Source of the DNA: a virus
Reading direction: 5' to 3' (one strand)
IMG/VR virus record: IMGVR_UViG_3300032242_001749
Location: 1-26,213 of that record
Length of the DNA: 26,213 bases
Part shown: one piece after another, positions 2,732 to 21,514 of the stretch
How positions within the stretch are numbered: the stretch's first letter is position 1
How the letters are laid out: the number at the start of each line of letters is the position of its first letter
Position numbers and translations under genes: made by a program
Notes under the pieces: model-generated
What the model was told of the DNA's origin: nothing
The model's input: the letters and a program-made list of their open reading frames with translations, nothing else
Database searches by the model: none

Positions 2732-3499
2732 TTAGTAGTTTCCGAAGAGACCCTGACCTCGGTTGCTGCCAGCCGTACCTAGAAGTCTGGAACGGTTTTT
2801 TGCATAGTCAGCCTGAGACATGTTTTGGATGGCTTCAGGCGTAAATGCTTGCGACGAATCGGAATCAAGGGGTCCAGAGGCAGGTGCAGTGATGCGTGCA
2901 CCAACCATTTCTTTGCGAGTCTGCTGAGACGCAGCCTGTACAGACTCTACAATTTGAGCGGTCTTTTCTTTGAGCCTAAGGATGCTCTGCTCAATGGCGT
3001 CCTTAGAGTCGCCCGCAATCATGTCAACCAGTTCAGGCATGATGTTTGCCCGCTCTGCTTCAACACGCTGTTGACGATACTGCTGAAGTTCCTGGAACTC
3101 ACGCTCACGCTCAAGAAGTGCAAATGCCTTCTCACGCTCTGAACGCTCCTGCTCAATCTGAGCCTGGAACTCCTGCTCTTTTTTAGCAAGAAGTTCACGA
3201 AGTTCGAGTGAAGACTCTTCCTCCGCTTTCTTTTGCTTGGCTAGTTCTGCGTCACGTGCAGCACGCTGTGCCTTACGCTCGGCTTCCTTAGCCTCTCGCT
3301 CTGACTCCTTCTGGCGAAGAAGGGCGATTTCCTCCTGCAACTTTTCGACCTGAGGATACAACTTAGCCTTCTCCTGAGCACGTGCTTTTTGAATTGCTTC
3401 AATGACATTCTCAGTGTTAGGTAGTGCTGTGTCCTCAGCAAGTGCGTCTGCTGAAGGGGTGTCGATAGTAGGCGTACCTACCTCTGTGTTTTCATCCAT
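2732..3499 (-). CDS. Capsid scaffold protein, coiled coil
   Basis: A 255-residue, highly charged protein. An acidic, disordered N-terminus (1-30) is followed by a long coiled coil from about residue 33 to 190, dominated by Glu, Lys, Arg, Gln and Ala (LYPQVEKLQEEIALLRQ). The short C-terminal region ends in Asn/Gly-rich sequence (SRLLGTAG, QGLFGNY). This architecture and the position between portal and capsid are typical of internal scaffolding proteins, which guide procapsid assembly and then leave. No protease motif is visible, so head maturation may not involve a protease fused to the scaffold. The ATG at 3499 is preceded by GAATCC and a weak AGAAGAGA ribosome site. Confidence 0.85.
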   Translation of the reverse strand: MDENTEVGTPTIDTPSADALAEDTALPNTENVIEAIQKARAQEKAKLYPQVEKLQEEIALLRQKESEREAKEAERKAQRAARDAELAKQKKAEEESSLELRELLAKKEQEFQAQIEQERSEREKAFALLEREREFQELQQYRQQRVEAERANIMPELVDMIAGDSKDAIEQSILRLKEKTAQIVESVQAASQQTRKEMVGARITAPASGPLDSDSSQAFTPEAIQNMSQADYAKNRSRLLGTAGSNRGQGLFGNY

Positions 3500-3619: not shown

Positions 3620-5341
3620 TTATTCTTTGTCAACTGTTCTGCGACTTGGGGGTTTTTGCCCAAATGCATCATTCAACAAATTCTGTCTGACGTTTGCTTC
3701 AGCCTCAAGGTTCTGCTGCTGCACGGCAGGGTCAACACCCTTACCAACCTCAGGACCAATCTGACCGTCACCAAGCACATCACCATCACCCATCATCATT
3801 GGGTCCATAGGAGTAGCCGTACCATCAGGTCCAGCCATAAAGCCTGTAAGGTCAATAATCTGTTTCTGAATCTGTACCTTAATAAGGTTGAGAGCACCTT
3901 CGGCTTCAGCATCATCAACAAGTTCTGCACGAATCTCTTGGAGTTTTTCTTCAGGGAACTCTTCACCAAGTGCACGAAGTGCACCTTCCTTTGACTCCAG
4001 ACCCATAGACATTAACTGCTGAAGTTCGTTCAACAAAACAATTCGGTCTAGAGGTAGTGGTGGATTGAAGTGTGCGTAGTTAACGTAAGTTAGCGGGTCG
4101 TTTGGGTCCAACTGGTCTAACTGGTCTTCACCAATAGGACCATCAGTATCAGGGTTGTATCTAAAAGTCTCTGGTTCTTTGACCGCAAGGTTAAGAAGAA
4201 CAAGTTCGTTAATGCGCTCAAGACCTTTGCCGTACACAGAAATTTTTTGTGAATAACGGTTCATCAATGGCTGGTATTGAATGGACAGTGCAACACCAGA
4301 AGTATTAGAAATGCCCTGTACTTGACCCAAAGCAGTTTCTGGAATGTTCATAAGTTCGTGCATTGAACGTTTCAAAGTATCCAAATACTGAAGAGCACCT
4401 TGAATACCTGCAGCGCCACCCTCAAGGTTAAATACTTGAGAATCCTTAGGCAGACCAGCCCAAACCTTCTTTGCACCTTTTTCAAGGTTAGAAGCCTTAG
4501 CACCAATAACAATGGTCACAGGAGCAGCATGATAGTTAATAATGTCTGCGATGTCGGTAGAAATTTCGTTGTACGAACGGTTCACAGTAATAATGTCGTG
4601 AGCGTCTGACAGACCCCAAGGCGAACCTGACACAGGAACATTAGGTATGTGAACTACAGGAATCATACCCAACGGGTTAACTCGAGAGTCAATCAGTTCA
4701 TCGTTTACATACTCTTCGATAACATCATCAGTAAGGATTTCAGTGTAAGTAAAAACTTGACGAGTACCTTCAAGAGATGTTCCCCAGAAACGGTACTTTT
4801 GCTTAAATCTGAGCAAACGAGTTCTGTCATGTGGGTGAAACTCTGGAAAAGCAAACGCTGGGTTTAGCGGAAGAATACGTACACGACCTGGGTGCAGTCT
4901 GCCAATACCATCTTCCCAAGCCTCTTCGTAAGCAACTTTGACAAAACAGTCACCAGTAATGCCACCAGTTTGCGCCATCTCAAGAAGGACACGCTCTTTG
5001 TCATTGTCAATCTCCCAAACTCTTTCAAGTCTGTTAGGAACAATAGCGCCAGTTGCTTTAGGGCTGCGGAAATGGACGCCAGGTCCAAAAGTAAAACGAG
5101 CAAGATAGTCAAGAAATGCTCTGTAATAGTTGAGCGAAATCTGCATTTCGCCCTGCTCACGACGGTAACCCCAGTGGTGACCAAGATACATAGCCCAGTT
5201 AAGGCTGTATCTGTTTAGGCGAGGACCATGGACCTCAAACTCTTCATCAGCAAGTTCCACCAAACCAAGTGGTGAAATGGAGATTGTAAGGTCAGAAGAA
5301 GCCGCACGATAACTCGGCGGAGAAAAGTCCATAAAAGACAT
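3620..5341 (-). CDS. Portal protein
   Basis: A 573-residue protein of the length and position expected for a portal of the SPP1 gp6-like type. Portals form the dodecameric ring at one capsid vertex through which DNA enters. Supporting stretches are ITGDCFVKVAYEE (about 130-142), NPLGMIPVVHIPN, NRSYNEISTDIADIINYHAAP and PETALGQVQGISNTSGVALS, the stem and wing region pattern of this family. The C-terminal ~90 residues are Met/Asp/Gly/Gln-rich and probably flexible. The ATG at 5341 has GGAG upstream, inside the end of the preceding gene. It sits between a small basic gene and the scaffold. A 120-bp A/T-rich gap separates it from the scaffold start; no clear promoter is seen there. Confidence 0.9.
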   Translation of the reverse strand: MSFMDFSPPSYRAASSDLTISISPLGLVELADEEFEVHGPRLNRYSLNWAMYLGHHWGYRREQGEMQISLNYYRAFLDYLARFTFGPGVHFRSPKATGAIVPNRLERVWEIDNDKERVLLEMAQTGGITGDCFVKVAYEEAWEDGIGRLHPGRVRILPLNPAFAFPEFHPHDRTRLLRFKQKYRFWGTSLEGTRQVFTYTEILTDDVIEEYVNDELIDSRVNPLGMIPVVHIPNVPVSGSPWGLSDAHDIITVNRSYNEISTDIADIINYHAAPVTIVIGAKASNLEKGAKKVWAGLPKDSQVFNLEGGAAGIQGALQYLDTLKRSMHELMNIPETALGQVQGISNTSGVALSIQYQPLMNRYSQKISVYGKGLERINELVLLNLAVKEPETFRYNPDTDGPIGEDQLDQLDPNDPLTYVNYAHFNPPLPLDRIVLLNELQQLMSMGLESKEGALRALGEEFPEEKLQEIRAELVDDAEAEGALNLIKVQIQKQIIDLTGFMAGPDGTATPMDPMMMGDGDVLGDGQIGPEVGKGVDPAVQQQNLEAEANVRQNLLNDAFGQKPPSRRTVDKE

Positions 5342-6153: not shown

Positions 6154-7746
6154 CTAAAAGAAAACATTTCCGCTCACCTCAACAGATGGCATAATCATCT
6201 CACGAGTAAGGTCACAAGCGATGGCTAAAGAGTCAACAAAGTCATCATGTGCATACGCTTCTTTTGGAGCAGCAACCATAAAGTTTGGACCTTTAAACTG
6301 CACCTCAGCATCAGTCATTTGTTGGTAGAACCTTTTCCACACATTCAGGCGACGAGTTTTAGCGTGAGCAGGAAAACTTAAAGCATCACGCTGAATGAGT
6401 GCTTGTAAGTGCTTAAATCTCCGTGACTGCTCCGACTGGCTAGAAGTCAAAGGGATAACTTCTGTGCGAGGCATCAATACTTTAAGGCGTTGGGCTACTG
6501 CATCACCAACACCGTTTCCGTCTACTCCCAAAGCAAGCACATCATAATTGCTAAGAAAGTTAACAATCTGAAAGTATTGTTCTTCCCAGTCATCGCCCTG
6601 AATTTCAAGCCAGTTAAGGATACGGTGGTCAAAATACCCAAACTCATCGGGTCTATCCCAGTCAACCCACACCACTGTAACAACAGTAGAGTCAGTTTTA
6701 CGGGCAGGGTCAATGCCTACAACTACAGGAGTTTGATGCCACATCTTTACAAGTTCTTGCGAAGTATCACCAAGTTCATCCATTTTTGTAGATGTAACAA
6801 ACATGCCTCGCTCCAACAGCCACTTACAGTTGTAAGACATTTGAAACTCATCAGAATCTTCGCCAATGCGAAGCATTTCTTTACGAATGTGTTTTTCGTA
6901 GTTTCCGTTAACTTTTGCTACGTCACGCCAATCCCATTGGAAATGATTTTGTTTAGATTTACGCCCAGTTTGGCGACGCTTGTTGAACTGGATAGCCTTA
7001 TAAAAGTTGTTTTTAGAAGTAGTCGGTGTCCCAGTTTTAACCATAGTTCCAGCGTAATACGCCATCATTGGCGCAATAGATTTGTCCACTACATAGTCAT
7101 CTGCTTCTTGACACTCATCAATGACAATAAGATGAAACGATTTAGATTCAATCTTGGCTCGTGGGTTAGCGGTCATCATGGTAATGGTAGAGCCAGAATT
7201 TTTTAGTTTAATTTGACGAGTTACACCACCAATACGAATGGCAGAGTCGTCAATTTCGGCATCACCCAAAATAGCATTTGCTTGCTCAGAAGTAAGGCGG
7301 TTGACGGTTCGCCCAAACAAAGTTTCAGCCTGACCTTCAGTAGGAGCAAACAACCCTACCCAAATACCTTCTTTAAATCTTCCAAGAAGGTCAGGGTATC
7401 TTTTTGCCAAAATAGGCAACAACACCATAAGCGTGGCTACTGTGTCAGCAATAGTTTCAGATTTCCCTGACTGACGAGAAGCCAACGCTGTAATCTCAGA
7501 ACCATCATTAATGATTACTGATTCCATGATTCTACGAGCCAAAGGCTTTTGATACGGGTGCAAATCGTGACCCACCAATGCCACCAAGAAAATCATCATC
7601 TTATCAACCAACTTATTAACAAACTCTTGAGTAAGTTGGTCAACCTCAACATCTAAACTTGAAAGGTCTTCTTCTTCAGTGTCATGCTCTTCGAGATAAA
7701 AATTAGGGTCAATTTCCTCAAATTTATCTTCAAACTCTTCACTCAT
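6154..7746 (-). CDS. terL: Terminase large subunit
   Basis: A 530-residue packaging motor. The N-terminal ATPase has a Walker A loop ASRQSGKSET at 89-98 (Lys95) and a Walker B LIVIDE at 206-211 (Asp210, Glu211 as catalytic carboxylate). The TGTPTTSKN stretch at 238-246 fits the coupling motif. The C-terminal RNase H-like nuclease shows GIDPARKTDS (Asp346), LGVDGNG (Asp409) and AHDDFVDSLA (Asp501, Asp502, Asp505) as likely metal ligands. It cuts concatemeric DNA and pumps it into the procapsid through the portal. The first ~45 residues are an acidic extension. Its ATG overlaps the TGA of the upstream gene (ATGA), which suggests translational coupling. No classical small terminase subunit is evident next to it. 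Confidence 0.95.
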   Translation of the reverse strand: MSEEFEDKFEEIDPNFYLEEHDTEEEDLSSLDVEVDQLTQEFVNKLVDKMMIFLVALVGHDLHPYQKPLARRIMESVIINDGSEITALASRQSGKSETIADTVATLMVLLPILAKRYPDLLGRFKEGIWVGLFAPTEGQAETLFGRTVNRLTSEQANAILGDAEIDDSAIRIGGVTRQIKLKNSGSTITMMTANPRAKIESKSFHLIVIDECQEADDYVVDKSIAPMMAYYAGTMVKTGTPTTSKNNFYKAIQFNKRRQTGRKSKQNHFQWDWRDVAKVNGNYEKHIRKEMLRIGEDSDEFQMSYNCKWLLERGMFVTSTKMDELGDTSQELVKMWHQTPVVVGIDPARKTDSTVVTVVWVDWDRPDEFGYFDHRILNWLEIQGDDWEEQYFQIVNFLSNYDVLALGVDGNGVGDAVAQRLKVLMPRTEVIPLTSSQSEQSRRFKHLQALIQRDALSFPAHAKTRRLNVWKRFYQQMTDAEVQFKGPNFMVAAPKEAYAHDDFVDSLAIACDLTREMIMPSVEVSGNVFF

Positions 7747-8231: not shown

Positions 8232-9116
8232 CTAACTTGCTTTCTTGTATGGATTTCTTCCTGCGCTGCGACTTGGATTAGTTCCGCCACGAGTTTGAGA
8301 AATGTCTTTCTTAAGTCTATTAGGAACATTCATAGAAGGTCTGCGTTGTTTCGGACTATCTTCCAAACCGTAATAGTTAGCGGTTCTTGGTTTAGTTTTA
8401 TAAACTTTTTGGATAGTGCGACCCTTTTTGGGCTTAGTTTTAATCTGAGCACTTCTAGCAACACGATAAAGGGCTTCACGAATCTGAGGGCTAACATTGT
8501 TCATGTCCCCAGCATTTCCACGAGGTTTATTGATAAACAACCCATCAGAAGCCTGATTTTTGTTTTTTCGGTTTAACCAAGGCTTACCTTTGGAATACGA
8601 AGCATGGAACGCTTCCCATTCAGTAGGTGAAACTTTGTAATAGTTGTAAAAAGTTCCGTCACGGAAAACAACAGTCATAGTTCCATTAGCAGGATTAGAT
8701 GGGTCAGGGGTGTAACCTGCGGCTACTGTACGAGGCTTTTCATAGTTAGTGGAAGATGTTGGAACTTCCCATTCCACAAACAGCGAAACATCTCCATTAA
8801 CTGCATTATTTAACTGTCTTTGAGTAACAGTTTGAGCGTCCTCATAATAGTTGCCATTTACTTTGTAATAATCGCCAGCGTTCATCATTCCAGCGTCAGT
8901 ATCGCCAGAATTCACTTGGTCTTGGTAAATGCGATTGACCTGCTTGCCATACAAGAAACGGCGGTCAACATTTAACTCGCTGGCAGCGCTACTAGCATTA
9001 CCACGAGTTAGGCTATCAAAAGTTTCGGAGGTACTCTCCAAAAATGGTTTCAGGAGTGCCGAAAGTTCTTGGCGGGAAGGGTAGTTCCCACCGCTCGGCA
9101 CTCCTGAATTAGCCAT
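8232..9116 (-). CDS. KTSC-like domain protein with basic tail
   Basis: A 294-residue protein. Residues about 146-183 (TMTVVFRDGTFYNYYKV, then EWEAFHASYSKGKPWLN) match the KTSC domain pattern: a beta-hairpin with aromatics, then a helix and a Ser-Lys-Gly turn followed by LN. KTSC domains are small, proposed to bind nucleic acid, and frequent in phage proteins. Residues 225-294 are strongly basic and disordered (KTKPKKGRTIQKVYKTKPR), consistent with DNA or capsid binding. The N-terminal 145 residues are unassigned. It lies two genes before terminase. Function is unknown; a virion or packaging accessory is plausible. Confidence 0.75.
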   Translation of the reverse strand: MANSGVPSGGNYPSRQELSALLKPFLESTSETFDSLTRGNASSAASELNVDRRFLYGKQVNRIYQDQVNSGDTDAGMMNAGDYYKVNGNYYEDAQTVTQRQLNNAVNGDVSLFVEWEVPTSSTNYEKPRTVAAGYTPDPSNPANGTMTVVFRDGTFYNYYKVSPTEWEAFHASYSKGKPWLNRKNKNQASDGLFINKPRGNAGDMNNVSPQIREALYRVARSAQIKTKPKKGRTIQKVYKTKPRTANYYGLEDSPKQRRPSMNVPNRLKKDISQTRGGTNPSRSAGRNPYKKAS

Positions 9117-9121
9117 TTTTA

Positions 9122-10855
9122 TTAGGCGATGTAGGTCAACGTAATGCTTGCTGCTTCACCAATAGTTCCAGCACCTGGAGCAACGCTCTGAGTGTAAACG
9201 TACTGGCTCTTAGCCGATGCGTAAACAGTACCTGCAGCCTGTGGAATCGACACGATAGTTGCGACACCAGCCTGTGTTGCGGTAGCAGTTCCATTTACGT
9301 TCGAAGTGATAGTGAAGTTAGAACCTGAAGTTGTTGCAACAACACCAGTGATGTTTAGCGAAGCACCAGTCGTAGCAACCAAACCAGTAATCTGAACAGT
9401 GACACCAGCAGTTGGGTTCATTGTCGAAGTAAAGGTTGCGGTTGTTCCGTCACCAGAAGCAGCAGTAACAGTTCCTGCAGTTGGCAGGGTGTAGCCTGAT
9501 GGCTTTGCAATGGTGAAGGTGTTGGTGGTTACAGCCGTAATCTGAGTCTGGCTTGCAAGGTTTGATGTAACTGCGTTGCTAACACCAGAGGTGGTAGTTC
9601 CGTTAACAGTTACATAGTCATTAACAGCAAAACCGTGACCTGCAGCAGTGAATACTAGCGGGTCAGCCTTAGGGTTAACTGCGGTAACAGTCTTAACCTT
9701 ACCCAAAGCAAGTGCCTGAACCGAGGTTGATGGACCAATTGCGTAGACAGTACCAGTGGTGTCAGCCTTCGAAGTGATGGTCTGTGCAAGAGCATAGGTC
9801 ACCGAAACGTTAGCCACAACCGAAACAACAGTTGTCTGATAAGCGACAAAGTTTGTGTCGGTAGTTCCAGCAACCCAAATACGGTCACCTTCAAGAACAG
9901 CGTGGGTACCAATAGTGACAGTTGCGTTTGTACCATCAGCAGCAACGTTGGTGATTCCATACTTGCGAGAAGTCACACCTTCGACGATACCAGTGTCAGC
10001 AGCAGACGCAATAAGCGAACCAGAACTACGGGTAAAGGTAAAGGTGGTGGTTGTCGGAACAGTAGCGACTACACCAACAAGACCGTCAAGAGCAGTTGCA
10101 GTTGCAACACCCTTGAGGCTGATGATTTCACCAGCAACATAGCCGTGTGGCAGTGCGGTGGTAATAGTTACAGTCGAGATGTTCGATGCAGCAGCAGTTG
10201 CAGCAACGTTGGTAATCTGTGCTAGACGGCTACCAGTAACCATTGCCGAACCAGTACCGCTTGAAAGTGCAGTAGTACCGTTTGAACGAACAGTGAAAGT
10301 GTTGGTTGCAACGTTGGTAATAACAAAAGTTCCGTTTAGGTCAGCAGCAGTTGATGTAAATCCAAACAGCGAAACAACGTCACCAACCTGGAAACCGTGG
10401 TTGTTAGCGGTAAGAGTTGCACCTGAGGTAGAAACGGTACGAGCAACCGAAGTTACACCAATAGCGCCGTTAACGTTAGTTGCAGCCGAAGGAGTGCCAT
10501 AACCAGCAGCAAGGTAACCTGCGTCCTTTAGGGCGTCCTGTGCGTCGCTTAGACGCTGACCAACTACGCTTGGTACAACAACGTAAGGGGTGTAAGTGTA
10601 GGCAGAACCAGTGAACTTACCCTTGTCGCCACCTGTGAATAGTGGGTAGTTGTTCCAACCGCCGAGAATCATGGCGTGTGGGTTCTTCGACGAAGCAGCC
10701 GAAGTAGACAAACGACCGTTTGAAGCACCAGGAGTAGCGTTTGGGGCTACGTCTGGACGCAAATCGTTTGGCTGCATAGGGAGGTTTCCCCATACAAAGT
10801 CAACAACGGGGTTACCCGAACTGTCAACCAAGTGGTTGTTGTTATTAAGAGCCAT
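9122..10855 (-). CDS. Large structural protein: split PASTA and five beta modules
   Basis: A 577-residue Thr/Val/Ala/Gly-rich protein, almost certainly a virion protein (tail, fibre or head decoration). A TTG at 10861 would add two residues, but the ATG at 10855, 2 nt after the upstream stop, is the better start. Residues about 92-118 (VVVPSVVGQRLSDAQDALK, then DAGY) match the first half of a PASTA domain. The last ~25 residues (YTQSVAPGAGTIGEAASITL) match a PASTA second half. Between them lie about five imperfect 75-residue modules with the pattern HGF-x-x-GD-x-V...NGTF-x-I-x-x-V...TFT-V, near 137-208, 210-288, 298-373, 385-463 and 463-538. PASTA domains bind peptidoglycan, so a cell-wall-contacting role is possible. 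The same module ends the partial protein at 1-999. Confidence 0.85.
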   Translation of the reverse strand: MALNNNNHLVDSSGNPVVDFVWGNLPMQPNDLRPDVAPNATPGASNGRLSTSAASSKNPHAMILGGWNNYPLFTGGDKGKFTGSAYTYTPYVVVPSVVGQRLSDAQDALKDAGYLAAGYGTPSAATNVNGAIGVTSVARTVSTSGATLTANNHGFQVGDVVSLFGFTSTAADLNGTFVITNVATNTFTVRSNGTTALSSGTGSAMVTGSRLAQITNVAATAAASNISTVTITTALPHGYVAGEIISLKGVATATALDGLVGVVATVPTTTTFTFTRSSGSLIASAADTGIVEGVTSRKYGITNVAADGTNATVTIGTHAVLEGDRIWVAGTTDTNFVAYQTTVVSVVANVSVTYALAQTITSKADTTGTVYAIGPSTSVQALALGKVKTVTAVNPKADPLVFTAAGHGFAVNDYVTVNGTTTSGVSNAVTSNLASQTQITAVTTNTFTIAKPSGYTLPTAGTVTAASGDGTTATFTSTMNPTAGVTVQITGLVATTGASLNITGVVATTSGSNFTITSNVNGTATATQAGVATIVSIPQAAGTVYASAKSQYVYTQSVAPGAGTIGEAASITLTYIA

Positions 10856-10857
10856 GC

Positions 10858-11094
10858 TCAATCTTCTTTCTCACATAAGTGACTTGATGTTTCGTCCCCG
10901 TAAAGGATTTCGCCACAGTCCCGACAACGGAACATGCGGACATCGTCTAGTGCTTCGTGCAAAGAGTCCAAATTATTGTGCGTGTACGACCGAGGATTCT
11001 GTGCGAGAACCTCGGGCGGAAACGGTCCCAAGGGACGGGTGTAACCATGCGGGACAAGGTGTCCCTGCACAGCATCTTTCCGAATAACAGGCAT
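10858..11094 (-). CDS. Small zinc-ribbon-like protein
   Basis: A 78-residue protein. The C-terminal part has CRDCG followed about 13 residues later by HLC, a likely zinc site of the Cys-Cys-His-Cys kind. The N-terminal half is Pro-rich (GYTRPLGPFPPEVLAQNPRS). The ATG overlaps the last base of the upstream stop (TAATG). The stop lies 2 nt before the ATG of the large structural protein, so the three are probably cotranslated. No specific function is recognised. Confidence 0.72.
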   Translation of the reverse strand: MPVIRKDAVQGHLVPHGYTRPLGPFPPEVLAQNPRSYTHNNLDSLHEALDDVRMFRCRDCGEILYGDETSSHLCEKED

Positions 11095-14155: not shown

Positions 14156-14704
14156 TCAGTTAGTTTTTATAAGCCTTGTAAACGTTACGTTACTCGTCCA
14201 ATTTTGTTTTGCCCAAGCCCATACCTTAATACGCTGTGTGCGTACCCCTGGATGAGGAGCGTGAATCATGTACCCGTTACCGACATAGATACCGACATGT
14301 CCAGGAAACCCGATGATGTCACCAACTTTTGCTTTTGTTTGAGAATACTTGTGAGGTGTCCCACTGTATTTCTCTACATAGGCGCTGTGGTGCAGCGTGA
14401 TTCCTAGTTGCTCGTAATACCACATAACAAGTCCCGAACAGTCCCACCCTTGTGGGGTGTTTCCTGAAAATACGTACCATGTTTTATTTACGTACTTGTT
14501 CAGTTCTTTAGTAACAGTTTTTACACGTTGAGCATAATGGAGGGCTACAAGCCCTTTCATGCTCAAGGGATTCCACAATCCCTGTTCCACCTTTGATGTG
14601 GTGGCTGTGGAGACGGTCTCCACTTTTATTGCAGCGGCTGCCTCAGAGGCAGAGCAACCTGCCAATGTAAATAGCAGGACTGCGATTGCAATGAACTTCT
14701 TCAT
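14156..14704 (-). CDS. Secreted NlpC/P60 lipoprotein, cell-wall peptidase
   Basis: A 182-residue protein with a lipoprotein signal peptide: KK, a hydrophobic core at 4-13, and the lipobox LAGC with lipidated Cys17. The C-terminal domain is NlpC/P60: WDCSGLVMWYY carries nucleophile Cys89, KVGDIIGFPGHVGIYVGNG carries His136, and MIHAPHPG carries His148. NlpC/P60 enzymes cleave D-Glu-diaminopimelate bonds in peptidoglycan peptides. It would be exported and anchored to the outer face of the membrane, unlike the CHAP-like enzyme at 12871. It may help lysis, entry exclusion or wall remodelling. A 112-bp gap upstream and a terminator downstream suggest an independent unit. Confidence 0.88.
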   Translation of the reverse strand: MKKFIAIAVLLFTLAGCSASEAAAAIKVETVSTATTSKVEQGLWNPLSMKGLVALHYAQRVKTVTKELNKYVNKTWYVFSGNTPQGWDCSGLVMWYYEQLGITLHHSAYVEKYSGTPHKYSQTKAKVGDIIGFPGHVGIYVGNGYMIHAPHPGVRTQRIKVWAWAKQNWTSNVTFTRLIKTN

Positions 14705-15427: not shown

Positions 15428-15468
15428 AGTTTAAGCATACACGCTTCGAACCGCAAATACATACTCGG

Positions 15469-15540
15469 AGCCTCTAGAAAGAATCGAACTCTCATCTGCT
15501 GTTTACAAGACAGCCGTTCTAACCGTTGAACTATAAAGGC
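15469..15540 (-). tRNA. tRNA-Thr (anticodon TGT)
   Basis: A complete cloverleaf reads leftward. The 7-bp acceptor stem is GCCTTTA/TAGAGGC with one G-U pair. The D stem is GTTC/GAAC, the anticodon stem GCTGT/ACAGC with loop CTTGTAA, and the T arm GAGAG-TTCGATT-CTTTC. Bases 34-36 read TGT, decoding ACA (Thr). The 3' end continues CCG, so CCA would be added after transcription. It lies between Hsp20 and HNH genes. Confidence 0.9.
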
Positions 15541-15594: not shown

Positions 15595-16110
15595 TTACTT
15601 GATAGTAATAACCTTAGGTTTCTTTTCTTCAGGTAGTTCCTTGTTGAACTGGATGGTGAGCATACCGTCCTCAAGGTGGGCGTTAGTAACTTCCCAATAC
15701 TCTGCCACAGCCAACTGCAACTTGAAATCACGAGTAGCGATACCCTGATAAACAACGTCACCAGTCTGCTTCTCTTCCTTCTTACCTTCGATTGTCAGGA
15801 CGGAGTCCTGCACGGTTACGTTGATTTCTTTCTTAGAGAAACCCGCAATCGCCACATTCAGAAGGTTAATGTCATCCTTCAAGGCGACAATGTCATACGG
15901 AGGATAAGAGGGTTTGTTGTTGGTTACTTCCTTGAGAGTTTCAAGGAGCGGAGACCAGCCAATGGATAGGCGGTCTAGACGTGGGAACAAGTCAGCGATA
16001 GTCACTGGCTTAGGAATTGGTGGTAGTTCCCAATTCTTTTTCATGTTCTTATCCCAAGGGTCATGAGGGCTGCGCTCATAAGGACTTGGATAGTTATTGC
16101 TGTAATTCAT
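15595..16110 (-). CDS. Hsp20 / alpha-crystallin small heat-shock protein
   Basis: A 171-residue small heat-shock protein. The N-terminal arm (1-70) is Pro/Asn-rich and variable. The alpha-crystallin domain spans about 70-165: YPPYDIVALKDD, VAIAGFSKKEINVTV, LTIEGKK, then DFKLQLAV and LEDGMLTIQF. It ends with a short KPKVITIK tail containing the conserved I-x-I anchor. These ATP-independent chaperones hold unfolding proteins; phage copies may assist virion assembly. The ATG at 16110 has an ideal AAGGAG ribosome site. It lies just downstream of the effector island in the same orientation. Confidence 0.92.
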   Translation of the reverse strand: MNYSNNYPSPYERSPHDPWDKNMKKNWELPPIPKPVTIADLFPRLDRLSIGWSPLLETLKEVTNNKPSYPPYDIVALKDDINLLNVAIAGFSKKEINVTVQDSVLTIEGKKEEKQTGDVVYQGIATRDFKLQLAVAEYWEVTNAHLEDGMLTIQFNKELPEEKKPKVITIK

Positions 16111-16202: not shown

Positions 16203-16544
16203 TTATAGCAAACCTTTTTCTTGAAGTCTAGTGAAAAACCCCTCCCCTTCATCAGACTCTACTTCAGAGCGAGACGGAGAAAACCCTTTTGATTTTGCAT
16301 AACGGATTAATCCTTCACCAATTCCTTTACCTGATTTATCTACTTCAATGTTGGCAACTTCATTACTAGGCATACCTTGATAGTCTGTAGTATCAGTATC
16401 CCCATGAAGTTCCAAAAATCCTACTTGGCTGCCTTCGTGGTGAGCAGTAAATAAATGATTGTTTTTTCCAGGTATGTAACTAGACGGTTGTTTACCTTTG
16501 TGCTCGTAAGTTACCCCGTGGAAGTCTGCATTATTTCTAGTCAT
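16203..16544 (-). CDS. Tagged GNAT-like acetyltransferase (island gene 10)
   Basis: A 113-residue protein starting with the island tag MTRNNADFHG. The rest looks like a compact GNAT N-acetyltransferase: VGFLELHGD strand, then NEVANIEVDKSGKGIGEGL, where GKGIGEG resembles the acetyl-CoA pyrophosphate loop (R/Q-x-x-G-x-G/A), then a helix RYAKSKG. It ends SDEGEGFFTRL, a motif shared with the GNAT-like proteins at 19357 and 18623. The substrate is unknown. The ATG overlaps the upstream stop (TAATG). It is the last gene of the island. The acetyltransferase call rests on pattern only. Confidence 0.72.
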   Translation of the reverse strand: MTRNNADFHGVTYEHKGKQPSSYIPGKNNHLFTAHHEGSQVGFLELHGDTDTTDYQGMPSNEVANIEVDKSGKGIGEGLIRYAKSKGFSPSRSEVESDEGEGFFTRLQEKGLL

Positions 16545-16798
16545 TACAGACCCCTAGACTTTCGTATAGTCTTTTCGCATTTCGCACATTCAACCCACTG
16601 CATAGGGTAGGAGTACTCGTCCTCATCGAGGCGAGCAACAGGGTTGTCGTGCTCTGGGTAAACAGTGGCACCACACAATGCTTTTTCGCCCTCACCATTT
16701 GGTGCAGAGTTAGTATGTGCGTGCCAGGTGCCTGATTGAGTAGCAGCGGCATAAAATTTGTTTACACCGCCATTAAACTCTGCATTATTTCTAGTCAT
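16544..16798 (-). CDS. Tagged Cys/His zinc-type protein (island gene 9)
   Basis: An 84-residue protein with tag MTRNNAEFNG. The body contains WHAHTNS, ALCGATVYP and WVECAKCEKTIR, a His-Cys...Cys-x-x-Cys layout that resembles short zinc domains of the DUF3039 type by pattern. No catalytic residues are apparent. The ATG overlaps the stop of the upstream island gene (TAATG), as does its own stop with the next ATG. It shows that the tag is also joined to a non-enzymatic-looking domain. Confidence 0.7.
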   Translation of the reverse strand: MTRNNAEFNGGVNKFYAAATQSGTWHAHTNSAPNGEGEKALCGATVYPEHDNPVARLDEDEYSYPMQWVECAKCEKTIRKSRGL

Positions 16799-17133
16799 TA
16801 GTAATCTTCATTCATGCGCCAATGCATTACAGGCACAGTAGTATTTGGCAAAACTTTAGATAAAGCACGAACACGGTGATTACCGTCAATAATAACGTTT
16901 TTATTGCGGTAATACCCAATAGTGATAGGCATAGGGTGACCTTCAAACTTTGGAATAGTTTTAGGGTCTAAACCTTTAGCGTATTTCTTTTCCAAACCTG
17001 ATTCGGCGTTTTCGTTATCAATTTCTTGAGGAGTACCTTCATGTTGTGCGGTTGCCAAAATTTCGGCAGGAGTCATCATGGTTATAGATTTGTGTTCTGG
17101 TACCCCACGGAAGTCAGCAGTATTTCTAGTCAT
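16798..17133 (-). CDS. Tagged ParB-like protein (island gene 8)
   Basis: A 111-residue protein. A longer frame opens at 17226, but the tag MTRNTADFRG at the ATG at 17133 fixes the start by comparison with its neighbours. Residues about 60-105 match the ParB N-terminal (ParB/sulfiredoxin) pattern: a PMPITIGYY strand, then VIIDGNHRVRALSK carrying the G-x-H-R signature, then a TVPVMHW strand. Domains of this fold bind or hydrolyse nucleotides and occur in phage polyvalent proteins. The start overlaps the upstream gene by 8 bp in the sequence ATGACTAG. Confidence 0.75.
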   Translation of the reverse strand: MTRNTADFRGVPEHKSITMMTPAEILATAQHEGTPQEIDNENAESGLEKKYAKGLDPKTIPKFEGHPMPITIGYYRNKNVIIDGNHRVRALSKVLPNTTVPVMHWRMNEDY

Positions 17134-17482
17134 GGTCATCGTCCCAAGAATACGAGCGACCATGCTTTTCGTTGAACTTATCAAACAAATGCTGTGCCGC
17201 AGGGTGAATAATTTCTCCCCAGTCAATGTTATGTCTGGGGAACTTTTGGTAAAAATGTGAGACTAGTTTTTCTGCATGTCCTTGACCCGAATGTGGGGAG
17301 CGTAAGTAGTCGATGTATGCTACTCCAACAGGGTCTGTATGGTACTCCAAAGAAGCGACATTTTTAGATTCAGAAGAATGGAGTCTCAAAATGCGAGCGT
17401 TTTCATAATCAGGGTTATCAAAGGACTCATCAGTAATGGTGTATCCCTGACCACCTTGGAAGTCTGCATTATTTCTAGCCAT
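17126..17482 (-). CDS. Tagged GNAT-like acetyltransferase (island gene 7)
   Basis: A 118-residue protein with tag MARNNADFQG; the ATG at 17482 is chosen over an ATG 18 bp upstream because of the tag and the TAATG overlap. The body has ARILRLHSSESKNVASLEYH, then VGVAYIDYLRSPHSGQGHA, where SGQGHA fits the acetyl-CoA loop, then helix EKLVSHFYQKF and HPAAQHLFDKFNEKHG, the usual last helix of a GNAT fold. It is a different subfamily from the other island GNATs because it lacks their late S/T-D/E-x-G motif. Substrate is unknown. Confidence 0.72.
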   Translation of the reverse strand: MARNNADFQGGQGYTITDESFDNPDYENARILRLHSSESKNVASLEYHTDPVGVAYIDYLRSPHSGQGHAEKLVSHFYQKFPRHNIDWGEIIHPAAQHLFDKFNEKHGRSYSWDDDHD

Positions 17483-17922
17483 TATGCAAACACCGTCCAT
17501 GGTGGGTCAATTTTACGGGTATGTACAATTTTAGGGAGTTGAGTTTCAGGGTCATACACAGTCTTATGAATGGCGTGAACGTGCACAATTCCTCCCCTTT
17601 TAACAGGGATTTCTTTTTCGTAATCTGCACCCAAATCATAATGCGCTAATTTTTCTGGGTCAGTTTCTCGTTGACCTTTAGGAAGAACCCCTTCTAAAAC
17701 ATGCCCAGTGTTTTCCTCATCCCCAAACATAATTTCATTATCATCTGGGTGCAATCCAACGCCAAACCTAGCCGCAATTTGTTTGCTAGTAGTCCAATGC
17801 ACTCCAACGGGCTTATCAAGGTTAGGTTCGCTTTCAAGGTCGTAGGCGTTAAGTCCTCGGTATACTTTTGTCCCAATGTGTTTAGATTGAACACCTGCCT
17901 GAAATTCATTGTTTCTACCCAC
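17482..17922 (-). CDS. Tagged ADP-ribosyltransferase-like protein (island gene 6)
   Basis: A 146-residue protein. The GTG at 17922 is chosen as start: it has GAGGAGG 6-7 nt upstream and begins a variant tag, MGRNNEFQAG. The body fits the Arg-Ser-Glu class of ADP-ribosyltransferases by pattern: KVYRGLN supplies the Arg, VHWTTSKQIAARFG resembles the Ser-Thr-Ser strand and helix, and DYEKEIPVKRGGIVHVHAI resembles the E-x-E region. Such enzymes transfer ADP-ribose from NAD to host proteins; T4 Alt is a packaged phage example. Activity is not proven. It overlaps the upstream fusion gene by 8 bp (GTGGGTAG). Confidence 0.7.
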   Translation of the reverse strand: MGRNNEFQAGVQSKHIGTKVYRGLNAYDLESEPNLDKPVGVHWTTSKQIAARFGVGLHPDDNEIMFGDEENTGHVLEGVLPKGQRETDPEKLAHYDLGADYEKEIPVKRGGIVHVHAIHKTVYDPETQLPKIVHTRKIDPPWTVFA

Positions 17923-18622
17923 GACATTCCTCCTCTGGATGCCAATGGACTTCAGTATGACCATTTGGGTTTTGATAAAAGTGACCCACACGTTTGACGT
18001 CGCTGACCCTAACGTTGCCAGGAATGTACTGGTCACCAGTCAACTTGTGCGTTCTAAGCACTTCTGCTTTTTTTTGTGCAACTTGATAGATGTCATCACC
18101 GTAAAGTTTTCTTGGAGGGTTACCTACGAAAACCCCACGCTCGTCACCTAGTCGTTTCTTAGCGGCATCCGTCATCTCGGTAAACTTTTCGTAACCAGAG
18201 TTACCTATTAGTCCTCTAGTTTCAATAGAGGAACGGTTCATACGAGGACTGACGTGGAATAGCCCAGTGCTGAAATCTTCATGTTGAGGGCTTAGTCCTG
18301 CTTGTTTGGCATACTCCCACATGCCTTCTTCAACGCCTTTGCGTTTGAACCCAGTCATACCTCCTTGTTCGAAAGTATCTACGTTTAGAGTTCTACCGCC
18401 ACCCTCATGCGGTGGGTTGAATGAAAACTTGCCGATACCGCCCACAACCCATGGGTGATGGGCAGTTACCATTGCAGAACCATCGTCAAACACTTTGTGG
18501 CTGTAATACACGTGTTTCATTAGTTCTTCTTTAGGTAACTTATTAGAGTAACCACCGTATTGCTGCGCCAACCGAGTAAGTTCGGCTTTATCATCTGGAG
18601 TAAGAGTTGGTCTATCTACCAT
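17915..18622 (-). CDS. Untagged GNAT-ART fusion (island gene 5)
   Basis: A 235-residue protein, the only island member without the tag. Residues about 40-120 look like a GNAT-type domain (GGIGKFSFNPP; GFKRKGVEEGMWEYAKQAG; SPQHEDFSTG). From LFHVSPRMNRSSIETRGL (about 121) onward it is closely similar to the whole protein at 19002. Shared parts are a SIE..GL start, GV-[F/Y]-VG, YGDDIY, SD-x-KRVGH, and EVH-x-HPEE-x-C near the end. That domain resembles an ADP-ribosyltransferase fold. AGGAG lies upstream of the ATG at 18622. It probably arose by fusion of two cassettes, with the late GNAT motif lost at the joint. Confidence 0.7.
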   Translation of the reverse strand: MVDRPTLTPDDKAELTRLAQQYGGYSNKLPKEELMKHVYYSHKVFDDGSAMVTAHHPWVVGGIGKFSFNPPHEGGGRTLNVDTFEQGGMTGFKRKGVEEGMWEYAKQAGLSPQHEDFSTGLFHVSPRMNRSSIETRGLIGNSGYEKFTEMTDAAKKRLGDERGVFVGNPPRKLYGDDIYQVAQKKAEVLRTHKLTGDQYIPGNVRVSDVKRVGHFYQNPNGHTEVHWHPEEECRG

Positions 18623-19009
18623 TTAGTATCTCCTCGTCCTAGTAATGACGACAGCATCCTCTTCTGGGTCATACTCGTTCTCAGGAAGATGCCCACCAAC
18701 ACTTCTAGCCCAAGCGTCGCCCGCTTCGGTGCGCTCTTCACTGTGTTCAGGTGACGGAATGCTCCCGCCGCTCGCCGCAGCCAACTTCTGTGCAAACCGA
18801 TACATGCCAGTTGCGACACCCTTGTTACGGTGCGCCATCTCGGTGTTGATGTGTCTGATGCGCCCAGACTCTTTATCCCAGTAAAGACTGCCTGCTTTTT
18901 GACCAGAAGAGTCTAGAGCAGTGACTTTGTGATACTCCCCACCAAGGAATGGTTCGCTAGGCGAATGCGTGAACGTATAACCGTGGAAATCTGCATTATT
19001 TCTAGTCAT
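18623..19009 (-). CDS. Tagged GNAT-like acetyltransferase (island gene 4)
   Basis: A 128-residue protein with tag MTRNNADFHG; the tag places the start at 19009, not at an upstream frame extension. The body shows KAGSLYWDKESGRIRHINTE, then AHRNKGVATGMYRFAQKLA, where RNKGVATG fits the acetyl-CoA loop Q/R-x-x-G-x-G/A, and finally PSPEHSEERTEAGDAWARSV. The last, HS-x-x-RT-x-AG-x-WA, recalls phage GNAT-like proteins I know from actinophages. The ATG overlaps the upstream stop in ATGACTAG. It lies next to the ART-like gene 19002. Confidence 0.75.
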   Translation of the reverse strand: MTRNNADFHGYTFTHSPSEPFLGGEYHKVTALDSSGQKAGSLYWDKESGRIRHINTEMAHRNKGVATGMYRFAQKLAAASGGSIPSPEHSEERTEAGDAWARSVGGHLPENEYDPEEDAVVITRTRRY

Positions 19010-19364
19010 AGATTGACGCTCCGTCACAATGTTCTTCAGGGTGGAGATGCACTTCGGAACGACCAAGACGGTCATGAAATACGTGACCTACACGTTTGAA
19101 GTCGCTGGTTTTTATGTCCCTTGGGATTATCTTTGCGCCATACTCCATGTCATCTTCTAGAACAGGTTCGTTTTTTGCTACTTTGATTTCATAAATGTCA
19201 TCACCATAGCCAAGACCCGTGCTAGGACCACTACCGACGTAAACGCCTTTAGGAGAACTATCCCACGGCTGATTGGCTTTTAAACCATTTTCTTCGATAC
19301 TGCGTCGGTTCTGTTTCCATGAAGCGTGGTAAAAAGTATTGAAATCTACATTATTTCTAGCCAT
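19002..19364 (-). CDS. Tagged ART-like protein (island gene 3)
   Basis: A 120-residue protein with tag MARNNVDFN. Directly after it FYHASWKQNRRSIEENGLKA has the Y-H-x-S...SI-x-x-x-GL start seen in many ADP-ribosyltransferase-like domains, followed by KGVYVGSGP and GYGDDIYEIKV. The end, DFKRVGHVF and SEVHLHPEEHCDG, matches the C-terminal half of the fusion protein at 17915, so the two are paralogues. AAAGGAAG lies upstream of the ATG at 19364. It overlaps the upstream gene by 8 bp (ATGGCTAG). Catalytic activity is inferred from fold pattern only. Confidence 0.7.
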   Translation of the reverse strand: MARNNVDFNTFYHASWKQNRRSIEENGLKANQPWDSSPKGVYVGSGPSTGLGYGDDIYEIKVAKNEPVLEDDMEYGAKIIPRDIKTSDFKRVGHVFHDRLGRSEVHLHPEEHCDGASIYD

Positions 19365-19737
19365 GGTAGTTCACTTCCTTTCCCGTATCGCCATTCATGG
19401 TGTAACCATACGATGGTACATTCAAAAGACCGTTACGCACAGCCTTTTTAGTGAACGCTTCACCTTCATCACTGACACTTCCTGGAACGTCAAGTATTTG
19501 CCCCCCATGCGCCCTTGCAGCCCCAAGTAGCGCAGACATTACGCCCATACGCTGATAGTTGGGGTGAACATCCATAGAAAGAACACCAGGGGCATCATCT
19601 GGGTCGTTGCTCCATTTAAGTTCCCCAATTGTTTTACCTGTGTCACGGTGTAGGGCTAAAGTTTTTAAGACGTTACGTTCTTTAGTTTTTTTGTGCACAA
19701 TGTCGTAACCGTGAAAGTCAGCGTTGTTCCTAGCCAT
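19357..19737 (-). CDS. Tagged GNAT acetyltransferase (island gene 2)
   Basis: A 126-residue protein with tag MARNNADFHG, encoded with different synonymous codons from its neighbours. The GNAT core is clear: TGKTIGELKWSND, then VLSMDVHPNYQRMGVMSALL, where V-x-P-x-x-Q-R-x-G-V is the classical motif A, then AARAHGG and SDEGEAFTKKAVRNG as the closing helix. It should transfer an acetyl group from acetyl-CoA to an unknown amine. It follows the island's first gene by 9 bp and overlaps the next by 8 bp. Confidence 0.82.
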   Translation of the reverse strand: MARNNADFHGYDIVHKKTKERNVLKTLALHRDTGKTIGELKWSNDPDDAPGVLSMDVHPNYQRMGVMSALLGAARAHGGQILDVPGSVSDEGEAFTKKAVRNGLLNVPSYGYTMNGDTGKEVNYHG

Positions 19738-19746
19738 TAGTAACCC

Positions 19747-20385
19747 TCATTTTTTACTAAACATTTCTGAAAACTGTTTGCTAGTGTGAATACCTACAGG
19801 TCGAATAGCATGAGGTTTGTTCAACACTGCTTGTAGGCTTTCTGGTTTTCCCCAGTTGTGTAGTTGGTGTTCATCGGTAATAAAAGAATCAAAACCTGCA
19901 AATGGTGCAGCATGTCCTAAATCCCTAGAATCGTTGTTTTCTACACCACGACGTAACTTATTCAACTTCTCTAGAAGGTAACCCCCGTGGACGTCTGGAA
20001 TCTTTCCTGCTACTACACGGTTTTTGATGTCTTCTTCACGTCCAGCCAAAGCCTTCATGATTATGTCTTGGTGGTTAGGGGTTACTACTCCATGGATTCT
20101 ATCGGCATACACTAGAGGGTTTCTGCCAGTGAACTTAGACCGAAGCACAGAGCCGCCGCTTTTAGATTCTTCGTCACTTTGGTTTAGGTAGTAAGCAACG
20201 TCATCTGGGTGGGAAGCCATGTTAAACCCAGGACCGTATGTGCCACCATCGTTTTGACCAGGTTCGCTAAGTTCAGGCTGACGGATACCCTGATGGACGA
20301 TGTCGCTTAGTTGATGTGTGCGACCAGCGTGATACCAATCAATGGATTTTGCATGAGCCAAAAAATCATCAATGTTTCTACCCAT
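19747..20385 (-). CDS. ART-like protein with degenerate tag (island gene 1)
   Basis: A 212-residue protein. It starts MGRNIDDFLA, a diverged form of the island tag, then IDWYHAGRTHQLSDIVHQGI. This Y-H-x-G start, the GTYGPGFNMASHPDDVAYYL segment and the later GFDSFITDEHQLHNW match ART-type domains in phage polyvalent proteins (first strand His or Arg, then the A-x-x-Y helix, then a D-x-x-x-x-x-D strand). It is the longest single-domain island member and the first transcribed. No ribosome site is obvious before the ATG at 20385, which lies 5 bp after the preceding stop, so coupling is likely. Confidence 0.7.
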   Translation of the reverse strand: MGRNIDDFLAHAKSIDWYHAGRTHQLSDIVHQGIRQPELSEPGQNDGGTYGPGFNMASHPDDVAYYLNQSDEESKSGGSVLRSKFTGRNPLVYADRIHGVVTPNHQDIIMKALAGREEDIKNRVVAGKIPDVHGGYLLEKLNKLRRGVENNDSRDLGHAAPFAGFDSFITDEHQLHNWGKPESLQAVLNKPHAIRPVGIHTSKQFSEMFSKK

Positions 20386-20657: not shown

Positions 20658-21026
20658 TTATTTTTTGTGGGTTTCGGTGTGTGAGTTGTAGCGGGCAATG
20701 TGTTTTGCTTTGTTGATGTTTGCGCCTTTGCCCATTGGGGATGGTTTTGGTCCTTTAGGTTTCTTTGGTAGGAGGGTGCCACGGTCTCCGTAACCGTTGG
20801 TGTCTCCGTCGCCGCCACCGTTGTTGATGTTGTATGGGTTTGGGAATTTGTGTGATGTGTAGATGGTTTGTGTGCCTACACGTTTGGCTGTTGCCGTGTA
20901 ACCGCCACCGATTGGGGATGGTTTTGGTTTTGGTTTTTTGGCTGGGCTGCCTGGGTTGTATGGGTTGCCGTCTCTGCCGTTACCTTCGTATGGTGACGGG
21001 AACTGGTGTGGGTTCATGTTTGGCAT
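20658..21026 (-). CDS. Pro/Gly/Lys-rich disordered protein
   Basis: A 122-residue low-complexity protein rich in Pro, Gly, Lys and Asn. Two related blocks are visible: a FPSPYEGNG/FPNPYNINNG start and a KPKPSPIGGG/KGPKPSPMGKG block, suggesting an internal duplication of about 55 residues. No fold is predicted. The coding strand is unusually rich in A and C compared with the island genes next to it. The ATG overlaps the upstream stop by one base. A disordered virion or scaffolding role is possible. Confidence 0.65.
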   Translation of the reverse strand: MPNMNPHQFPSPYEGNGRDGNPYNPGSPAKKPKPKPSPIGGGYTATAKRVGTQTIYTSHKFPNPYNINNGGGDGDTNGYGDRGTLLPKKPKGPKPSPMGKGANINKAKHIARYNSHTETHKK

Positions 21027-21514
21027 TAGTCTTGGAACCTTTCTGATGCTGAACGGGTGATACCGTTTTCGTCAAATGCTTGTGGAAAGAACTGGCGTCC
21101 TAGGTAAGTGTTGGCTCGTTTTGCTGCTGCACGTGAGTTGCGGTCACGGGTTTGTGCGCCTCGGGCTGCTGCTGTTTCACGGTCTGGTTTGGCTACTACG
21201 GCTGGTCCTGCGGTGCGTGATGGGATTGGGGCTGCACCTGTTTGTGTTGGGATTGCTGCGTCTGCTTGGTGGTGGGTGTCTGTGGCTAGTGCATCGGTGT
21301 GCATTTGAGACTTTTCTAGCGGACCTAGGTCGAAGTCTAGTGACCCGTTGTAGTGGGTTGGTGTTGTTCCTTTGAAGAACACTGCTTGACCACATTTGGC
21401 GCACTTTGGTACGGCAGCCCATGCTGCTTGACGCATCGCTGGGTCTGGGTGCTTGTTGCGTCCCGTGAACAAACGTTCGTGTGTTCTGAGAGCAAAATTC
21501 GGGTCGGTTGCCAT
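21026..21514 (-). CDS. Hypothetical protein with one CxxC knuckle
   Basis: A 162-residue protein, the first gene of the leftward block. Residues 30-45 contain VPKCAKCGQAVFF, a single zinc-knuckle-like pair. The central part is Ala/Thr/Pro-rich and flexible (DAAIPTQTGAAPIPSR). The end is basic and helical (AKRANTYLGRQFFPQAF). No family is recognised. GGTCACC precedes the ATG at 21514. It faces the divergent control region at 21515-21642. Confidence 0.7.
   Translation of the reverse strand: MATDPNFALRTHERLFTGRNKHPDPAMRQAAWAAVPKCAKCGQAVFFKGTTPTHYNGSLDFDLGPLEKSQMHTDALATDTHHQADAAIPTQTGAAPIPSRTAGPAVVAKPDRETAAARGAQTRDRNSRAAAKRANTYLGRQFFPQAFDENGITRSASERFQD

Follow-up and report, generated by a model that had tools for sequence, protein, structure and literature searches.

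The window analysed here is the whole stretch of 26,213 nucleotides of the IMG/VR virus record IMGVR_UViG_3300032242_001749 (positions 1 to 26,213). Between 16203 and 20385, nine out of ten successive minus-strand genes begin with the peptide M-[GTA]-R-N-[N]-x-[DE]-F, hereafter called the tag. The genes of this cluster are tightly packed head to tail, and stop and start codons overlap in several of them. A previous reading made from the letters alone (the sequence-only reading) had described a consecutive set of proteins sharing one start peptide and diverging completely after it. When the sequence was checked, all nine tagged starts were recovered at their positions with the expected peptides, including the copy at 17922, which had correctly been reported to be one residue short. 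The cluster is nevertheless interrupted by the gene at 17915-18622, the product of which starts with MVDRPTLTPDD and carries no tag. Behind the tags lie GNAT, ART, ParB-like and Cys/His types of protein (the bodies). However, three of the GNATs (starts at 16544, 19009 and 19737) are homologous, so that calling the bodies completely unrelated was a slight overstatement.

Features of the tagged cluster and associated genes in the window
Feature	Position	Strand	Start peptide	Basis and relatives
Large terminase subunit, family marker	6154..7746	minus		72-87% identity in 20 tagged contigs
Hsp20 small heat-shock protein beside the cluster	15595..16110	minus		Pfam HSP20, 1.2e-15
Tagged GNAT-like	16203..16544	minus	MTRNNADFHGV	Weak Pfam Acetyltransf_7 match, E 0.0034; body in the GNAT cluster
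Tagged small Cys/His, zinc-finger-like	16544..16798	minus	MTRNNAEFNGG	Weak Pfam zf-HC3 match, E 0.0019, under cut-off
Tagged ParB-like	16798..17133	minus	MTRNTADFRGV	ddrB-ParB, E 0.022; aligned with a family, one member of which matches ParB_N (8e-6)
Tagged GNAT-like	17126..17482	minus	MARNNADFQGG	Sole GNAT basis a weak Acetyltransf_CG match, E 0.22; homologue L134 4763-5173 starts MGRNTAAF
Tagged ART-like, tag one residue short	17482..17922	minus	VGRNNEFQAGV (GTG codon)	Co-clusters with ART-like bodies bearing LGxQF and DRAxDxxR tags elsewhere
Untagged cluster member, GNAT-like and ART-like regions in one chain	17915..18622	minus		ART-profile match, alignment
Tagged GNAT	18623..19009	minus	MTRNNADFHGY	AlphaFold2 model, PDB acetyl/acyltransferase matches
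Tagged ART	19002..19364	minus	MARNNVDFNTF	AlphaFold2 model, PDB ART/PARP/Tpt1 matches
Tagged GNAT	19357..19737	minus	MARNNADFHGY	Acetyltransf_7, E 7e-4; 37% identity with a stretch of Rhodococcus phage E3 gp70 (structural protein by annotation)
Tagged 212-aa protein, unknown fold	19747..20385	minus	MGRNIDDFLAH	Homologue L024 6454-7119, 50% identical, starts MGANLDDFLAH
Cys-containing protein with LGRQF near the C-terminus, begins the minus-strand gene run	21026..21514	minus

A tRNA-Thr (TGT) gene also adjoins the cluster (15467-15540, minus strand). Elsewhere in the window, the head-gene run contains an NlpC/P60 protein with a lipoprotein signal (14156-14704), possibly a lysis or cell-wall enzyme. 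A KTSC-domain protein is located at 8232-9116. The protein encoded at 9122-10861 is long and repetitive and begins with a conserved region containing VDFVWGN; it is present in 16 related loci. In the loci of the Streptomyces phages BRock and LuckySocke, no match was found to this gene or to those at 7743, 10858 and 11996. The head genes of the window include the MCP (1571-2701), the scaffold (2732-3499) and the portal (3620-5341).

Spread of the start peptide and level of conservation

Scans of IMG/VR located the tag at the beginning of ORFs in about 65 contigs. Searching 50 tagged records with the loose pattern ATGNNNMGNAAYNNNNNNGAYTTY returned 72 matches, all on a single strand within each record, versus 3 matches for the reversed pattern; as these records were preselected for having a tag, the comparison gauges a clean background and not prevalence. 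Viral matches were mostly no more than a few residues away from the beginning of an ORF. When a tighter pattern was applied to 257 Gb of bacterial and archaeal genomes, only 23 matches were obtained, mostly inside long ORFs where they could be scored, and one match at an ORF start was NusA-like by eye. A bacterial origin of the tag was therefore rejected. A broad N-terminal [DEQ]F motif, enriched about 4-fold at residues 6-10 (24 families vs about 6), was too loose to use.

Positions fixed by the search pattern are unusable for claims of conservation. Outside the pattern, residue 11 was Gly in 49 of 90 tagged ORFs, and residue 2, left free in the first scan, was always G, T, A or P in these ORFs. 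Any of these four residues at position 2 would permit removal of the initiator Met. The core codons of the tag were written by 34 different nucleotide words in the same 90 ORFs. Within the window, Arg3 is encoded by AGA in eight of the nine copies, this codon making up 14% of Arg codons, and same-codon pairs in the tags number 90 vs 77 expected from codon usage (P 0.10).

The preference for AGA and the packed genes with their overlapping stop and start codons might reflect conservation of the DNA or RNA itself, either as a translation-start element or as a recombination site copying the start onto new genes. However, the same-codon pairs are not above chance, the core residues vary synonymously across the family, and such an element leaves swaps to unrelated peptides on the same body (described below) unexplained. 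Synonymous variety together with the replacement of tags led to the rejection of a DNA-level element; this explanation is disfavoured and we hold it to be very improbable. Judged from these sequences, the tag is conserved as a peptide, not as DNA.

Bodies behind the tags and interchange of tags

The bodies of 173 non-redundant tagged ORFs were clustered by pairwise similarity after removal of the first 12 residues. Three start peptides were considered: tag 1 (RNNxDF-type), tag 2 ([LIV]-G-x-Q-F) and tag 3 (D-R-A-x-D-x-x-R). The analysis yielded 77 body clusters, tag 1 being present in 51 of them, tag 2 in 7 and tag 3 in 25; this set still holds a few chance ORFs, and clustering on pairwise similarity splits remote homologues, leaving at least two ART groups.

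Homologous bodies can carry different tags. The same ParB-like body was found behind MGRNIGDF, MGRNNGDF, MGANNADF, MVSEENIGQQL or MTLSPSQF, and ART bodies were found behind MARNNVDF, MTPENVGQQF, MGANNADF or MSRNEEF (tags 1 and 2). Another ART-like cluster, containing the window protein that starts at 17922, bears all three tags, and tags 1 and 3 alternate on two small-protein clusters. ART, GNAT and ParB profiles with the tag masked were also searched; they detected 43 genes in the fetched regions, with tag 1 or 2 on 33 of them, in a search blind to the tag yet performed on contigs preselected for one. Several of the ten remaining genes start with near-variants (MGRSEHF, MTDAANVGQQM, MTLSPSQF) or correspond to a miscalled start of window 17133.

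Tag 3 occurs in part of the phage family, on about 25 body clusters including an ART-like body. Examples of the form M-x-x-D-R-A-x-D-x-x-R are L078 6458-6883, L032 3588-3896, and L068 4788 and 5047. For tag 2, scanning with the pattern M-x-x-E-N-x-G-x-Q-F gave few true starts, the remaining matches being ORF-internal. LGRQF also occurs near the C-terminus of small proteins (window 21026-21514, L006 5986-6123 and L042 2636-2911). Tag 2 thus need not be N-terminal, and these sequences suggest that it may function at either terminus.

The sequence-only reading had proposed a short modular tag on GNAT, ART, ParB-like and Cys/His bodies, had advised searching phage genomes for it on further unrelated domains, and had named its confinement to one homologous domain family as evidence against the proposal. 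The search bore the proposal out: the RNNxDF-type tag is present on about 50 body clusters, and tags are swapped on homologous bodies. The idea of one tag, in contrast, proved too narrow, since at least three are interchangeable. The three homologous GNATs of the window might point to simple descent, the tag being a functionless leftover of recent gene duplication. However, it is kept on about 50 body clusters, on bodies without detectable similarity and in phages with terminases differing by up to 28%. Simple descent is therefore disfavoured as well, and is the least probable of the explanations considered.

Profile searches identified some of the bodies. In the GNAT group, 10 of 14 members matched Acetyltransf_1. 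One ART group matched Arr-ms (10 of 14 members) and Pfam ART-PolyVal (two members), and ParB_N was matched by one member of the ParB group. PHROGs and PADLOC searches with the window proteins returned no useful match, and PHROGs gave two weak matches for 19 other tagged proteins. No effector domain could be recognised in many of the small tagged proteins.

Structure prediction, which had been recommended for each body, was performed with AlphaFold2 on two of them and returned GNAT and ART folds. The model of 18623-19009 has a pLDDT of 72, with residues 1-7 under 50; the model of 19002-19364, from the second ART group, has a pLDDT of 80, with residues 1-5 under 50. Foldseek E-values are 1e-3 to 1e-2, so that the fold calls rest on agreement among matches: the listed PDB matches of the first model are acetyl/acyltransferases (best E 1.2e-3), and those of the second are mostly ART/PARP/Tpt1 folds (best E 5.8e-3). 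In both models, the fold begins at residue 8-12, after the low-pLDDT residues of the tag. The tag is thus predicted to be disordered and to lie outside the fold.

Phage family and gene position

Terminases, in the tagged contigs that hold one, are 72-87% identical to that of the window, which assigns the tagged contigs to one phage family on sequence grounds. Several tagged contigs without terminase distantly matched the tail sheath of LuckySocke, indicating contractile-tailed phages. By head genes, the nearest cultured relatives are BRock and LuckySocke (Borockvirus-like), with identities of about 61-62% for the MCP, about 57% for the portal and about 51% for the terminase; the scaffold is less similar to theirs, at 33-35%. 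Tag 1 was missing from all four cultured phages examined (BRock, LuckySocke, Rhodococcus phage E3 and Mycobacterium phage Dandelion), and a tblastn search with one ART body against cultured phages gave no match.

In 20 of 20 records, the tagged genes and the terminase gene are encoded on one strand, in agreement with the orientation shared with structural genes that had been noted for the window. In the larger group of records, the tagged genes are located 2-13 kb upstream of the terminase. In a second group, terminase and tagged genes are tens of kb apart, which would correspond to a roughly constant site past the tail genes if the map is circular. From strand and neighbours, the tagged genes are probably expressed late.

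An hsp20 gene adjoins the cluster in most, not all, tagged contigs. The untagged phages BRock, LuckySocke, E3 and Dandelion yielded no match to Hsp20. The tag could mark its bearers as clients of the phage Hsp20 chaperone, or as subunits belonging to one multi-subunit complex. However, many phages display just one or two tagged genes, and the tagged records G019 (96.5 kb) and G036 (92.3 kb), of uncertified completeness, gave no match to Hsp20. Hsp20 as an obligatory partner was rejected on these two 92-96 kb records, and a chaperone or complex role of either kind seems improbable.

A possible virion-loading signal and its comparison with known systems

A flexible and replaceable start peptide, effector-type bodies and head-gene neighbours fit a loading signal. 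We therefore consider it probable, at roughly 60%, that M-[GTAP]-R-N-N-x-[DE]-F at the N-terminus, frequently with x-x-G after it, acts as a portable signal for loading injected effectors into the virion. Late in infection, the phage would make small, mostly single-domain effectors of ART, GNAT, ParB-like and zinc types, together with many of unknown type. The tag would bind a common partner in the assembling head, for instance a scaffold, portal or shell protein, and all cargo would be taken into the head together, to be ejected with the DNA and to act on host targets at once. The [LIV]-G-x-Q-F and D-R-A-x-D-x-x-R motifs may serve the same role. The failure to find tag 1 in the four cultured phages, the distance between tagged genes and terminase in the second group of records, and the many small tagged proteins lacking a recognised effector domain weigh against this explanation.

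The tags could instead mediate docking to one shared partner inside the infected cell, such as RNA polymerase, the ribosome or a phage hub protein. Any common short N-terminal motif that is free and flexible could do so; the models display a free tag, and no sequence feature links it to the capsid. However, the tagged genes are on the head-gene strand, their domains are of the types that other phages inject, and docking by three different peptides on the same bodies would call for either three separate sites or a single tolerant one. Docking in the cell is thus an unlikely explanation.

In the literature searched, the string RNNADF was absent from papers and no such tag was described outside T4, P1 and giant phages. 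A start peptide common to dozens of families provides a sequence-only listing of the probable injected proteins of a phage, the majority of them without a recognisable domain. If virion loading is the correct interpretation, the injected effector set of uncultured lineages would be readable from sequence, and the tags would be portable loading signals for head-packaging studies. Moreover, it would show how phages may swap effector repertoires without rebuilding giant fusion proteins.

Phage T4 brings a diverse set of anti-restriction internal proteins into its head by means of a 10-residue N-terminal capsid-targeting sequence (CTS) (PMC3012670, PMC10229621). As in IPI-III of T4, about ten N-terminal residues are common to otherwise diverse small proteins here. 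The sequences themselves are not similar: IPII and IPIII start with MKTYQEFIAEA, and by eye just the acidic-Phe pair, near residues 6-8, recurs in MGRNNADFxxG. In contrast to the T4 CTS, the tag consensus has no conserved Glu as a cleavage site, and there are three alternative tags. As to a head protease, no Peptidase_S78 was found in 16 records; the S77 search had no working positive control. By analogy, the signal most likely acts like the T4 CTS while being unrelated to it in sequence. In P1, the anti-restriction protein DarB is directed to the capsid by an N-terminal signal, its first 30 residues also bring a reporter there, and the Dar proteins share no common N-terminal consensus by BLAST (PMC9024508). 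The tag resembles DarB in its proposed N-terminal packaging signal; unlike in P1, the consensus is strong and present on dozens of families.

Polyvalent proteins contain ART, ParB-like and GNAT domains, are encoded near virion genes and are injected (Iyer et al. 2017, PMC5512222). The parallel with their repertoire drawn by the sequence-only reading is confirmed by the ART, GNAT and ParB-like profile matches among the tagged proteins, ART-PolyVal matching two of them. The tagged genes also lie among virion genes, consistent with late expression. However, polyvalent proteins join several domains in one chain, whereas the tagged proteins are mostly separate polypeptides, each with its own tag; at least two disparate domains are joined only in the untagged 17915-18622 protein. 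Domains of these kinds also occur in other phages. Dandelion gp89 (L168 11311-13629), a ParB-annotated protein of 772 aa encoded upstream of the portal and with ART-like stretches by eye, is a candidate polyvalent protein in Bxz1-like phages, and E3 gp70, structural by annotation, includes a GNAT region.

The T4 and P1 precedents, the fused domains in Bxz1-like phages and E3 gp70 lead us to propose separate ticketed cargoes instead of one polyvalent chain. A further-reaching possibility, which we rate below even odds, is an address code. It would consist of at least three interchangeable start peptides, each with its own virion site, able to load and inject any new small protein, so that separate changeable cargoes would replace the single chain. 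If so, about ten added residues would suffice to load a newly acquired small protein.
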